DNA of 10,540 nucleotides from Hyphomicrobiales bacterium (lineage in GTDB: Bacteria > Pseudomonadota > Alphaproteobacteria > Rhizobiales > Xanthobacteraceae), in NCBI GenBank assembly GCA_016201085.1, contig JACQDO010000074.1:1-10540 (forward strand), in the 5' to 3' direction. How positions within the stretch are numbered: the stretch's first letter is position 1; every line of letters starts with the position of its first letter. Of the stretch, positions 1 to 10,481 are shown piece by piece. The notes under the pieces were generated by a model. That model searched no databases. It was given only the letters and a program-made list of their open reading frames with translations, and was not told the DNA's origin. The position numbers and the translations under genes were made by a program.

Positions 1-1
1 G

Positions 2-94
2 ATTTTGTCCGATGCCGAGCGCACCCGCATCCGCCGCAACGAGATCGGCTTCGTCTACCACTCGCATCATCTGCTGCCGGAATTCACCGCGCTG
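2..94 (+). pseudogene. lolD: LolD fragment (lipoprotein-export ABC ATPase), inverted relative to lolC
   Basis: The plus strand reads, from codon 5-7, [18 protein letters not shown], then [12 protein letters not shown]. This is the stretch of LolD between the Walker A region and the signature motif, including the family-typical GFVYQxHHLLPEF block. LolD is the ATPase of the LolCDE system, which releases lipoproteins from the inner membrane for transport to the outer membrane. Only about 30 residues are present: the N-terminus with Walker A would lie left of the window, and the similarity stops at position 94, where the sequence becomes antisense lolC. In relatives lolD follows lolC on the same strand, so this piece is inverted. 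The Q-loop glutamine expected after GFVY is histidine here. The open frame continues to 526, but everything after position 94 is antisense to lolC and is not lolD. Confidence 0.75.
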
Positions 95-1257
95 GTCTCG
101 GCCGTATCCATGTTGGCGGGCAGACGCGACAGGAAATACAGCTCTGGCGAGAACAGCTCGGTGCTGGTCATCCACGACAGAAATTGCCGGATGCTCTCGA
201 TATTGGCGCAGACCACCACGCCGAGCAGGAAGCCGATAATGGTGCCGACCACGCCGATGGACGCGCCGGTGATCAGGAACACGCGCATGATGGCGCCCTG
301 CGTGGCGCCCATGGTGCGCAGGATGGCGACATCCTGGCCCTTGTCTTTGACCAGCATGATCAGGCCGGACACGATGTTGAGCGCCGCCACCAAGACAATG
401 AGCGTCAAGATCAGGAACATCACATTGCGCTCGACCTGCAGCGCGTTGAAGAAGGTGGCGTTGCGCTGGCGCCAGTCGATCAGGAAGATCGGCCGCTGCG
501 CCGCGTCCTGCACCGCCTTGCGGTAGCGGTCGACGCGGTCGGGATTGTCGGTATAGACCTCGATGGCGGTGACGTCGCCGGCGCGATTGAAATAGGCCTG
601 CGCCTCCTTCAGCGGCATGAACACCATGGCGTTGTCGTATTCCGACATGCCGATCTCGAACACCGCGGCGATCTTGTAGACCTTGATGCGCGGCGTGGTG
701 CCCATCGGCGTCACCGCGCCACGCGGCGCCACCAGCGTGATGTTGTCGCCTGAGCGCAGCGAGAGCTGGTCGGCAAGCCTTCGCCCGATGGCGACGCCCT
801 GGCCGTCGTCGAAGCCGCCGAGCGAGCCCTGCTTGATGTTGTTGATGACGGAGGGCAGCTTTTCCAGATCCATCAGCCTTATGCCGCGGACCAAGACGCC
901 GCCGGCATTGAACGGCGAGGACGCCAGCGCCTGGCCTTCGACGATGGGCGCCGCCAGTTTGATGCCTTTGACGTCATTGATGCGTTTGGCCACTTCCTCC
1001 CAGTCAGTCAGCGGCTTTTCCAGCGGCTGGATCAGCAGGTGACCGTTCAGCCCGAGAATCTTGTCGAGCAGCTCGGTGCGAAAGCCGTTCATCACCGCCA
1101 TCACGATGATCAGCGTGGCGACACCGAGCATGATGCCGAGGAAGGAGAACCCGGCGATCACCGAGATGAATCCTTCCTTGCGCCGCGCCCTGAGGTAGCG
1201 CAGCGACAGCATCCATTCGAACGGCGAGAAGGGCCGCGTCCCGTTGGGGTCGGTCAT
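67..1257 (-). CDS. lolC: LolC/LolE-type lipoprotein-releasing permease, 3' end replaced
   Basis: Inner-membrane permease of the Lol lipoprotein-releasing ABC transporter. Many alphaproteobacteria have one such protein (LolF-like) doing the work of both LolC and LolE. I chose the ATG at 1257, giving [10 protein letters not shown] followed by [17 protein letters not shown], which matches the usual family N-terminus; an ATG at 1308 would only add non-conserved residues. TM1 spans about residues 31-55, then comes the periplasmic MacB-PCD-like domain, TM2 about 279-303, the cytoplasmic coupling region [17 protein letters not shown] at about 304-320, and TM3 about 325-352. Family similarity runs to about residue 391 (AETSAV) and then stops. 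The last few codons before the stop at 67 are antisense lolD. About 35 residues with TM4 and the usual LDPVEALRYE-like tail are therefore missing. The product as written would probably not fold into a working permease. Confidence 0.9.
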
Positions 1258-1306
1258 GAAAGGTTTGGTTCCCGCCTTTGAATCTTCACACGATTCGGGC
1301 GGATTC

Positions 1307-1325
1307 ATGCCACGGATCGTGGCAT
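1307..1325. repeat. Perfect 8-bp inverted repeat upstream of lolC
   Basis: ATGCCACG, a 3-base spacer GAT, then CGTGGCAT form a perfect inverted repeat about 50 bp upstream of the chosen lolC start. In lolC-sense RNA it would be a short hairpin in the leader. It could equally be an operator. No T-run follows on the lolC strand, so it does not look like an intrinsic terminator. Function is unknown. Confidence 0.5.
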
Positions 1326-1360
1326 AAGTCCTCGGAAGCACACAGGATTTTTGCCGAATC

Positions 1361-1457
1361 CGTCATCCTGAGGTGCGAGCGAAGCGAGCCTCGAAGGATG
1401 GACGGCCCGGGCCGTCGCCCTTCGAGGGCCGCCTTCGGCGGCCACCTCAGGGTGACG
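1361..1457. repeat. Dispersed palindromic repeat between proS and lolC
   Basis: The outer arms CGTCATCCTGAGGTG (1361-1375) and CACCTCAGGGTGACG (1443-1457) are complementary except for one G-T pair. Inside are further paired arms, CCTCGAAGG (1389-1397) with CCTTCGAGG (1419-1427), and a perfect 16-bp central palindrome (1401-1416). I recognise the GTCATCCTGAGGTGCGAGC...GCCTCGAAGGATGG wording as an intergenic repeat common in Bradyrhizobium-type genomes. It fills most of the 224-nt proS-lolC gap and would form a long hairpin in proS-lolC read-through RNA. No coding capacity is visible. Confidence 0.7.
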
Positions 1458-1481
1458 GTGCACGATTTGAGCGTGGCTACG

Positions 1482-2804
1482 CTACTTCGACAGTAAATCC
1501 AGCGCCGCCGCCGGGCTCATCATCTCCCGGCTGCCGTCGGCGCGCTTTTTCACTTCCACCTTGCCTTCGGCCAAGCCGCGCGGGCCGATCATCACCTGCC
1601 AGGGCAGGCCGATCAGATCGGCGGTGGCGAACTTGCCGCCGGCGCGCTCGTCGCGGTCGTCGTAGAGCACATCGACGCCCTTGGCGGTGAGGTCCTTGTA
1701 GAGCTGCGCGCAGGCGCCGTCGGTCCCGGCATCGCCCTGCTTCAAATTGAGCAGCGCCACCTTGAACGGCGCCACCGCCTCCGGCCAGACGATGCCGGCG
1801 TCATCGTGCGAAGCCTCGATGATGGCGGCAACCAGCCGCGACGGCCCGATGCCGTAGGAGCCCATGTGCACCGGCACCTCTCCGCCCGCGCCGGTGGCGA
1901 CCACCGCCTTCATCGGCGCGGAATATTTGGTGCCGAAATAGAAGATGTGCCCCACTTCGATGCCGCGCGCCGACACCTGTTTGTCGGCCGGCACTTTGGC
2001 GAAGGCGGCCGCGTCGTGCATGTCGGAGGTGGCGGCGTATTGCGACGTCCACTGGTCGACCGTCGCCTGCAAACCGGCGACGTCGTCGAAATTCACATTG
2101 GCGCCCGGCACCGCGAAGTCGAGATAATCCTTGTGGCAGAACACCTCCGACTCGCCGGTCTGCGCCAGGATGATGAATTCGTGGGACAGATTGCCGCCGA
2201 TGGGCCCGGACTCGGCGCGCATCGGAATTGATTTCAGCCCCAGGCGCTGGAACGTGCGCAGGTAGGCGACGAACATCTTGTTGTAGGAATGCTGCGCGCC
2301 GGCCTGATCGAGGTCGAACGAGTACGCGTCCTTCATGAGGAATTCGCGGCCGCGCATCAGCCCGAAACGCGGGCGCACCTCGTCGCGGAATTTCCACTGG
2401 ATGTGGTAGAGGTTGAGCGGCAGATCCTTGTACGAGCGCACATAGGCGCGGAAGATTTCGGTGATCATCTCCTCGTTGGTCGGCCCATAGAGCATCTCGC
2501 GCTCGTGGCGGTCCTGGATGCGCAGCATCTCCTTGCCATAGGCCTCGTAGCGCCCGCTCTCGCGCCACAGCTCGGCCGACTGGATGGTCGGCATAAGCAA
2601 TTCGATGGCGCCGGAGCGGTTCTGCTCCTCGCGCACGATCTGGCAGATCTTCTGCAGCACGCGGAAGCCGAGCGGCAGAAAGGCATAGATGCCGGCGGCC
2701 TCCTGCCGCATCATGCCGGCGCGCAGCATCAGCCGGTGCGAGACGATCTCGGCTTCGCGCGGCGGCTCTTTCAGGATCGGCAGGAAATAGCGGGTGAGGC
2801 GCAT
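1482..2804 (-). CDS. proS: Prolyl-tRNA synthetase, short alphaproteobacterial type
   Basis: Class II aminoacyl-tRNA synthetase that charges tRNA-Pro with proline in the cytoplasm. The 440 residues fit the alphaproteobacterial form that lacks the inserted YbaK-like editing domain; bacterial ProS with the insertion is about 570 residues. Motif 1 lies around residues 48-72 (ending in LLMPTIQ). Motif 2 is about 136-162 ([17 protein letters not shown], then LMKDAYSF). Motif 3 is about 315-330 ([16 protein letters not shown]). The anticodon-binding domain is about 345-440, with [18 protein letters not shown]. The ATG at 2804 gives [15 protein letters not shown], the normal family start; the longer upstream frame runs into non-conserved sequence overlapping copC. 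The gene is intact. Because the copper cassette separates it from the DUF1467/rnj operon, it needs a promoter in the 141-nt gap upstream. Confidence 0.95.
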
Positions 2805-3425: not shown

Positions 3426-4476
3426 GTGATCGACCCTCTCATCCTGGCGCGCGGTATTCATAGCGCGGCGACGGTGCTCGCCAGCGGTACGGTCTGCTTC
3501 GTGGTGCTGATAGCCGATGTCCCGGCACTACGCCGCCGCTTGAGTCTGATGATCTGGCTTGCGCTTGGCGTCGCGATCTTGTCGGGCGCCGGCCGGCGCT
3601 CGCAGTGGCCGCCGTCTTCATCGCCCTGCTCGGCTGGGTCGGCCAGAACGGCGCGACGCCGGCGCTGGCCGGCGATCTTCAACTGGCGACTGACGTAATG
3701 CACCTGTTGGCAGCCGGCGCGTGGCTGGGCGGTCTGCCGGCTTTGGCGCTATTGCTGGCGCAGGCGCGCGGCAATCCGACCCGGCGCGCATCCGCCGTTC
3801 GCCGGTTCGGAACACATGGCCTCATCTGCGTGACCGCGCTGGTCGCCAGCGGCATGTTCAACGCTTGGAACCTGCTCTCCGGCCCAGGCGACCTGCTGGC
3901 GACCGACTATGGCCGCCTGCTCTCGCTCAAACTCGGCCTGGTCGTCGCCATGCTGGCCATAGCCGCCGTCAACCGCTTCAGCCTTACCCCGCGGCTGGCC
4001 TCGCCTGGCTCGCTGAGCGCCCTCCAGCGCAACAGCCTGGTAGAGAAGCCGTGCTCGGGCTTGGCGTGCTGCTGCCGGTCGGCGCGCTCGGCACGCTGGA
4101 GCCGGCCGCACATAGCCACGTCCATACGCCGTCGGTGGTAACGCCGGCCGAAGCGGCCTTTGTCCATATCCACGCCGGCGAGACAATGGCCGAAGTCACC
4201 ATCGACCCCGGCCGCGCCGGGCCGGTGCGGGCGACGATACGCGTCTCGCGCGAGGATTCGGCAGATTTCGCTATAAAAGAGGTGCGGCTGGCGCTCGATC
4301 CGCCGCGTGCCGGCGTGGCATCGGTCGAACACGCTGCCACCCGCAAGCCGGACGGAACTTGGCAGGTCAACCGGATTGACATTGAGCAAGCTGGCGTCTG
4401 GACCGTGCGCGTCATCGTCGTGCCGGTGAGCCAACAACCGATCGTGCTCGACGCTCCCATAGTGATCGAACGTTGA
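3426..4476 (+). pseudogene. copD: CopD-family copper transport membrane protein, disrupted
   Basis: Inner-membrane partner of CopC, apparently with a C-terminal periplasmic domain. Three frames are needed to follow the similarity. Frame one, from GTG 3426, gives two helices (LILARGIHSAATVLASGTV; LSLMIWLALGVAILSGAG). At 3589-3597 the text jumps, with loss of an estimated 70-150 residues (from memory of family length), into a second frame: ALAVAAVFIALLGWVGQNGATP, then DVMHLLAAGAWLGGLPALALL, THGLICVTALVASGMFNAWN and LKLGLVVAMLAIAAVNRF. At 4043-4046 a duplicated GA moves it to a third frame, VLGLGVLLPVGALGTLEP. This is followed by a His-containing segment (HSHVHTPS, FVHIHAGETM) and a beta-rich YtkA/FixH-like domain ending in PIVLDAPIVIER. 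It cannot make a full protein as written. Real decay and sequence error are both possible. Confidence 0.85.
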
Positions 4477-4676
4477 AGCGTACGAATACTGGTGACATCG
4501 GTCGCAGTGTCGGATAGCGTGCGGCACGCCGTAAGAACGGAAGCCGGCAGATCAGACCGGTTCCAGCCATGCGGTCCAAGTCTTGGGAGGCAAGCAAGTC
4601 GATGGCGCGCTAACCGCAGCCAGCCCGTACGCCATATAAGCAACAAGCGCGGGTCAAGGACGGATAGAGATACGAC
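4477..4676. other. Non-coding stretch between copD and the terminator hairpin
   Basis: About 200 nt with no convincing reading frame on either strand and no tRNA, SRP RNA, tmRNA or RNase P signature that I recognise. It could be the 3' untranslated region of copCD. Because it ends in a strong Rho-independent terminator, it could also be a small RNA with its own promoter, although I see no good promoter. Confidence 0.3.
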
Positions 4677-7115: not shown

Positions 7116-7675
7116 TCAGGCTCCGCCCAGGCCGAAGACTTCGCCGGCGGTGACGGTGATCTCGCCGCAGGCGCCGCACAGCAGCAGATGGCCGGCCCCG
7201 CACTGGCCAGATCGGTCGCCGGGAAGGCTGTGTCTCTGGGATGCGCGGCGCAATTGACGCCGATGCCGATCGCCACGGAAAACGTCGGCCCGCTCTCGCC
7301 TTCGATCAGAATGCCGGCGACCTTGGCCATGCCCAGCAACAGATCGTTCGGCCATTTCACGGCCAATAACGGCCCGAGCTGCGGCGCGCGCGCCACAACC
7401 GCGTCATGCAGCGCCAGCGCCGTCACGAACGACAATTGCGGCGCCAATTCCGTCAATGACGGCTCGTTCACCAACAACGTGGCGTAGAGATTGCCCGGCG
7501 GCGAGGCCCAGGTGCTGTTGCGGCGGCCGCGGCCGGCCGTCTGCGCAAGCGCGCTCACCCACAACGGCCCGCGCTCGCCGGCGCGCGCCAGCGCCAGCGC
7601 CTCGGCATTGGTGGAGCCGAGCGTCTCGTAAGATTTGTGCCGGACCCCCGCCAGGTCCGTGGCGTCGCGGTTCAT
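7116..7675 (-). pseudogene. birA: Biotin-acetyl-CoA-carboxylase ligase (BirA), internal deletion with frame change
   Basis: Biotin protein ligase of the class without a DNA-binding domain; it attaches biotin to carboxylase carrier domains. From ATG 7675 the catalytic domain is clear: GSTNAEA (20-26), GRGRRNSTWASPPGNLYATLL (48-68), the KWPND biotin site (107-111), KVAGILIEGE and GIGVNCA (137-143). Similarity ends at residue 160 (TDLASAG). Reading on in this frame gives no family similarity and runs into rnj, ending at 7043. In another frame the expected C-terminal end appears at once (GHLLLCGACGEITVTAGEVFGLGG) and stops at 7116, 3 nt before rnj. I estimate 60-80 residues are missing at 7190-7199, including the remainder of the central domain and the start of the SH3-like domain. 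The ligase is normally essential, so this suggests sequence error or a second copy elsewhere. Confidence 0.85.
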
Positions 7676-9150: not shown

Positions 9151-10481
9151 TCACTGCACCAGCAATGCGGCGGTCTTGGCCGCAGAGATGACATGGTTGT
9201 AATTGTCGAGAAGTTGGGCGACCGAGGCCGCCGACATGTCGAGCACCGGGCCGGGCGCGACGCCGAACAGGATGGTGAGGATCACCAGCGGCGTGAAGAT
9301 CACCGCTTCGCGCCAGCCCATGTCCTTGATGCCGGCAAGACTCGGCTTCTGGATGCCGAAGATCATCTTGCGGTACAGCCACAGTGCATAGCCGGCCGAC
9401 AGGATGACGCCGAAGGTGGCGATGGAAGCGACCGCGATGTTGTTCTTGAAGGTGCCTATCAGCGTGAGGAATTCGCCAACGAAGCCGGAGGTGCCTGGCA
9501 GGCCGACATTGGCCAGCGTGAACACCATGAACACGAAGGCATACAGCGGCATGCGGTTCACCAGCCCGCCATAGGCGGCTATCTCGCGCGTGTGCATGCG
9601 GTCGTAGACCACACCGACGGCAAGAAACAGTGCGCCGGAGACGATGCCGTGCGAAATCATCTGGAAGATGCCGCCGGCGACGCCCTGCGTCGTTGCCGCG
9701 AAGATGCCCATGGTGACGAAGCCCATATGCGCGACCGAGGAATAGGCGATCAGCTTCTTGACGTCCTCCTGCATCAGCGCCACCAGCGAAGTACCGGCCA
9801 CATCGGCATCTTGACCGCGAAGGAAGCAAAGAAAGCGAGCCATGCCCATTTCTGCAGCTCCAGCGGGAAGCCGAACTTCAGCAGCGTCGGGATGTCGGTA
9901 GTCTGCGCCTGCCAGTACATCGCCATGATGGCGAGCAGCATCAGCACCGAGCCGAGCAGCGTGTAGAGGAAGAACTTGAAGCTGGCATAGACCCGGCGCG
10001 GGCCGCCCCAGACGCCGATGATCAGGAACATCGGGATCAGGCCGCCTTCGAAGAACAGATAGAACAGCACCAGATCGAGCGCCGCAAAGGTGCCGATCAT
10101 CAGCGTTTCCAGCACCAAGAACGCGATCATGTATTCCTTCACGCGCTTCTGGATCGAGGTCCAGCTCGCCAGGATGCAGATCGGCATCAGCGCGGTGGTG
10201 AGGATCACGAAGGGCAGCGAAATGCCGTCGACGCCCATATGGTAGTTCGACACGCCGAGCCAGGGATACTTCTCGACGAACTGGAATTCCGCCGAGCTGG
10301 CATCGAAGCGCCAGACCAAGACCAGCGAGATGGCAAACGTCACCAACGTCGTCCACATCGCCACCCAGCGCGCGGTGCCCTTGCCGAGATTGTCGTTGCC
10401 GCGCGCGAGCAGCATGATCAGCAGCGCGCCCAGCAGCGGCAGGAAGGTGACGACGGAGAGGATGGGCCAATTGATGTTCAT
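9151..10481 (-). pseudogene. nuoM: NADH-quinone oxidoreductase subunit M, internal deletion with frame change
   Basis: Antiporter-like complex I subunit. From ATG 10481 the N-terminal half is normal: [33 protein letters not shown], Glu145 in [11 protein letters not shown] (E. coli NuoM Glu144) and Lys224 in [10 protein letters not shown] (E. coli Lys234). The first frame then runs into a stop. In another frame similarity resumes at once as [25 protein letters not shown] and continues to LLVQ at 9151, including the GEF glutamate of [10 protein letters not shown]. The family segment normally between them (HTWLPDAHVEAPTAGS through LLKMGGYG to the next helix) is absent, about 50-55 residues by memory. 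It carries a nearly invariant LPDAH motif and a key channel lysine. The junction is at 9790-9797. As written, no working NuoM could be made. The flanking nuoL and nuoN are tightly spaced (1-nt overlap and 10-nt gap). Confidence 0.9.

Follow-up and report, generated by a model that had tools for sequence, protein, structure and literature searches.

Two published classes of in vitro chimera resemble the join described here. For multiple displacement amplification (MDA), one study reports that 406 of 475 chimeras were inverted, that 93.5% of the inverted chimeras with segments <10 kb apart had complementary bases, over a range of 2 to 21 bases, and that self-priming hairpins were excluded as a major route, with displaced 3' ends on nearby strands favored instead (Lasken and Stockwell 2007; PMC1855051). 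Comparable joins arise without MDA during library end repair, through single-strand hairpin chimeras and annealing, according to two reports (PMC8674242, PMC8458033). In addition, a further source describes more wrongly oriented read pairs in amplified libraries (PMC4060946).

The window analyzed here is the whole of contig C277 (10,540 of 10,540 bases, with position 1 the contig's first base), from a draft genome of 3,661,176 bases in 526 contigs that is 88.57% complete and whose nearest named relatives, among the best 80 of 580 GTDB records, are Pseudolabrys. In an ordinary pair of the Pseudolabrys type, exemplified by locus L041, lolC (10001 to 11269) and lolD (11262 to 11993) overlap by 8 bases and have the same sense, and dnaE follows. 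Both pieces in the window are close orthologs of the members of this pair; however, neither gene is whole there, and positions 1 to 95 are a piece of lolD joined backwards to its neighbor lolC.

On the plus strand, positions 2 to 94 translate into a 31-residue LolD piece, residues 2 to 31 of which matched positions 72 to 101 of the LolD profile TIGR02211 (E value, 1.4e-7), and the DNA of this fragment (1 to 95) was 84.8 to 95.5% identical to that of 14 relatives and 96% identical to L041 over 75 bases. On the minus strand, positions 67 to 1257 matched positions 1 to 381 of the 411 in the lolCE profile TIGR02212 (444.8 bits), whereas the L041 lolC covers all 411 positions. In a per-base comparison with the 14 relatives, lolC similarity stopped at about position 85; the lolC gene without its 3' end thus occupies 85 to 1257, and the remainder of its frame (67 to 84, in the open reading frame 67 to 1341) is a spurious end in which the reversed lolD piece is read through to a chance stop. 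At position 84 all 14 relatives agreed with the window in lolD and none in lolC, and at position 96 all 14 agreed in lolC and none in lolD; the join therefore lies within 85 to 95, an 11-base word, CACCGCGCTGG, that is common to both sides. The first-pass annotation had placed LolD on the plus strand and lolC on the minus strand down to about 85, as the two profile matches and the base comparison bear out, and had proposed a shared word at the junction, which is present but is 11 bases long rather than the 10 that it gave.

The order of the two genes was compared in 94 related loci, 14 of them from whole genomes and the others the best 80 of 580 GTDB records; the set was not deduplicated, and at least three contigs are present in both parts. 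The whole-genome search gave a match in 36 of 40 genomes, and the loci of the 14 best relatives were those compared base by base. In all 94 loci lolD followed lolC in the same sense, and in none was the arrangement that of the window, in line with the earlier statement that the two genes are normally consecutive on one strand, for which comparison with close relatives had been proposed. The piece of lolD found in the window had the sense of lolC in all 92 loci that could be scored by DNA. The two loci missed by the DNA search, L049 and L079, were recovered by protein search, in each case with lolD behind lolC and in its orientation; the L049 contig stops inside lolD, and the L079 lolD is normal. 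The two points joined in the window were 463 bases apart in 12 of the 92 scored loci, including L025, L026, L029, and L041, and 432 to 482 bases apart in 91 of them; in the remaining locus, L097, the distance was 1,725 bases and the orientation normal.

The closest relative, G009, with a LolC identity of 94%, has the exact 11-base word at both normal sites, in inverted orientation and 452 bases from each other. Within 1 kb, the 4,170-base G009 locus has only one other 11-base inverted word and none that is longer, and the 24 of 1,500,000 point pairs 100 to 1,099 bases apart that have an inverted word of at least 11 bases correspond to these two words. The exact word was present at both sites in none of the 13 other relatives, and hence in 1 of the 14 overall (G009 only). 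Judging from the junction and from G009, the species of the window would itself have carried the word at both sites, and its original distance would have been the 452 bases seen in this nearest relative.

Together, the inverted orientation, the closeness of the two points in the unrearranged order of the relatives, the 11 complementary bases, and the position of the join 95 bases from the contig end lead us to interpret it as a fold-back chimera that arose in vitro and ended up at the tip of a draft contig, an artifact of a known kind, with a probability of roughly 90%. An inverted join over a short distance at a complementary word, with loss of the intervening loop, matches the published signature of such chimeras. 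Most likely, then, the genome itself has an ordinary, consecutive lolC-lolD pair. In the proposed mechanism, the word CCAGCGCGGTG lies near the 3' end of lolC, and CACCGCGCTGG follows on that strand some 452 bases away, within lolD; a 3' end at one of the complementary words would anneal to the other and would then be extended, either in amplification or in library end repair. Such extension would attach a reversed part of lolD to lolC, with loss of the loop between them, and the assembler would have built the last 95 bases of the contig from one or more chimeric reads, with the true continuation missing. The reversed join, the shared word, the order in relatives, and the location at a contig end are observed, whereas the in vitro origin and the priming step are inferred. 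Points against this reading are that only 1 of the 14 relatives has the exact word at both sites, that none of the other contig ends compared was inverted, that 452 bases exceeds the range searched for end-repair hairpins, and that the MDA study excludes self-priming hairpins as a major route.

The agent that made the chimera is a separate matter. The window resembles the MDA chimeras in joining inverted segments <10 kb apart with an intervening deletion and with junction complementarity within the range of 2 to 21 bases; it differs from that set in being a single event seen only at a contig tip (PMC1855051). It likewise resembles the end-repair hairpin chimeras in that a short reverse-complementary word within one strand marks the join; however, those chimeras came from formalin-fixed tissue, with hairpins searched for within 150 to 300 bases, and widening the search from 200 to 300 bases gave no more of them, so that the 452 bases of the window lie beyond the range covered (PMC8674242, PMC8458033). 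The draft looks like a short-read metagenome bin, in view of 60 contigs seen whole or in part, of which the smallest has 2,518 bases, and of one 141-base overlap between contig ends, and for this reason we do not attribute the chimera to MDA in particular; either MDA or routine library preparation may have made it. The first-pass annotation had suggested a fold-back chimera joined at microhomology, of the type made by MDA. Its fold-back reading is supported by the orientation, the distance, the 11-base word, the lost loop, and the 94 normal loci of 94, but its attribution to MDA goes beyond the evidence, since end-repair hairpins give a similar join.

Searches of the draft for the missing parts of the locus bear on whether the join could instead exist in cells. 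Window positions 1 to 400 matched only themselves in the draft DNA, with no second place among the 40 of 161 candidates scored. One of four matches to the lolCE profile passed its cutoff, the one in C277. Matches to the LolD profile elsewhere in the draft reached 220.5 bits (C230), all below the cutoff of 307.75; this cutoff is a weak test for an intact lolD because the true lolD of L041 also falls below it, at only 250 bits, and just 1 of 14 control genomes passes. The LolD profile alone being indecisive, we relied on a DNA comparison with the lolD-dnaE region of L041. Over the lolD part, with 40 of 435 candidates scored, this region matched the 75-base piece of C277 at 96% and otherwise short stretches of other ABC ATPase genes at 72 to 90%; C230 aligned with the L041 lolD over only 142 bases at 74%. 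Neither an intact lolC-lolD pair (by profile and DNA searches) nor the reciprocal piece of an inversion (by DNA searches) was found in the incomplete draft, with 40 candidates scored in each DNA search. The start of dnaE is on another contig, C112 (NF004226, 1,482.8 bits). In six relatives the aligned edge of C112 falls 0.7 to 1.9 kb beyond the point joined in lolD, and the rest of lolD therefore corresponds to the gap between C277 and C112, as the ordinary lolC-lolD-dnaE order would predict.

As an alternative, the DNA may truly be inverted, or duplicated in inverted form, with one break in lolC and another in lolD, either throughout this genome or in only some members of the population. Inversions joined at microhomology do happen in cells, and the draft, although only 88.57% complete, has no intact pair to speak for the normal order. 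On the other hand, such an event would truncate both genes, with no intact copy in the draft, and well-studied Gram-negative bacteria depend on LolCDE for viability; all 94 related loci are normal; and the join is only 95 bases from the contig end. We consider a real inversion very unlikely on these grounds, and even more doubtful in the specific form of a genuine microhomology-driven inverted rearrangement by which lolC and lolD would be split, either across this lineage or in a subpopulation, with lipoprotein export rewired or an intact copy left unassembled. If the join were real, it would break two genes of the central lipoprotein exporter. Under the preferred fold-back reading, the first 95 bases of C277 are unreliable, as is the LolC C terminus annotated from this contig, and a tip of this kind is recognizable from the sequence and its relatives alone.

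Other contigs of the draft served as controls. Ten other contig ends were compared with four relatives, with 40 candidates scored per genome. By our reading, collinearity with one or more of the relatives extended to 15 bases or less from the tip at six of these ends, and none of the 10 was inverted; the four uninformative ends comprised the 3' end of C282, with 79 unmatched outer bases, and others that were repeats or unmatched. An additional end, the left one of C295, was collinear with G022 from base 3. The fold-back accordingly looks like a local event rather than a draft-wide one. A self-comparison of window positions 1 to 1500 for mirrored arms revealed no long inverted copy. A scan for inverted self-matches in 22 contigs (the window, C112, and 20 others, of which one was partial and three were all N), which is blind to cases of the window's type because their template is off the contig, gave mostly internal repeats; the only matches near an end were a 24-base palindrome at 4529 to 4552 of L136 (4,554 bases) and a 34-base match at 7193 to 7226 of L148 (7,344 bases).

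The assembler could also have made the join by itself, with no chimeric molecule involved, for instance where reads overlapped by a few bases, and the presence in C277 of other breaks relative to its relatives, in nuoM, birA, and copD, is consistent with such an error. However, the words normally used in assembly are far longer than 11 bases, and in this draft the ends of C112 (L119, 3580 to 3720) and C22 (L152, 1 to 141) share exactly 141 bases, with no other overlap of comparable length among 56 contigs. This overlap is probably the word size of the assembly and hints at a short-read one; a size of 141 is an assembler default. A mis-join at an 11-base overlap is, in our judgment, the least probable of the explanations considered.

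The other breaks lower the trust to be placed in C277. In nuoM, 181 bases of G009 are missing at 9792/9793 and the frame is broken, and no better nuoM match was found elsewhere in the draft. Wrongly merged read pairs were weighed as the cause of this deletion but discounted, since there is almost no shared word at the break; for the same reason, the breaks in nuoM, birA, and copD may have a cause other than that of the lolC-lolD join. The C-terminal part of birA is missing at 7156 to 7205, where residues 176 to 259 of the G009 frame have no match and the BLAST pieces are separated by 196 bases fewer than in G009; a DNA search of the draft with the birA region, run without a positive control, was empty. 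Compared with G011, copD is about 52 residues short near 3587, and its frame shifts near 4045.

The window contains no tRNA and no Rfam match. Between lolC and proS, at 1360 to 1458, lies an imperfect palindrome of about 100 bases, itself without an Rfam match, and copies related to it are scattered through the draft and through other genomes of the genus.
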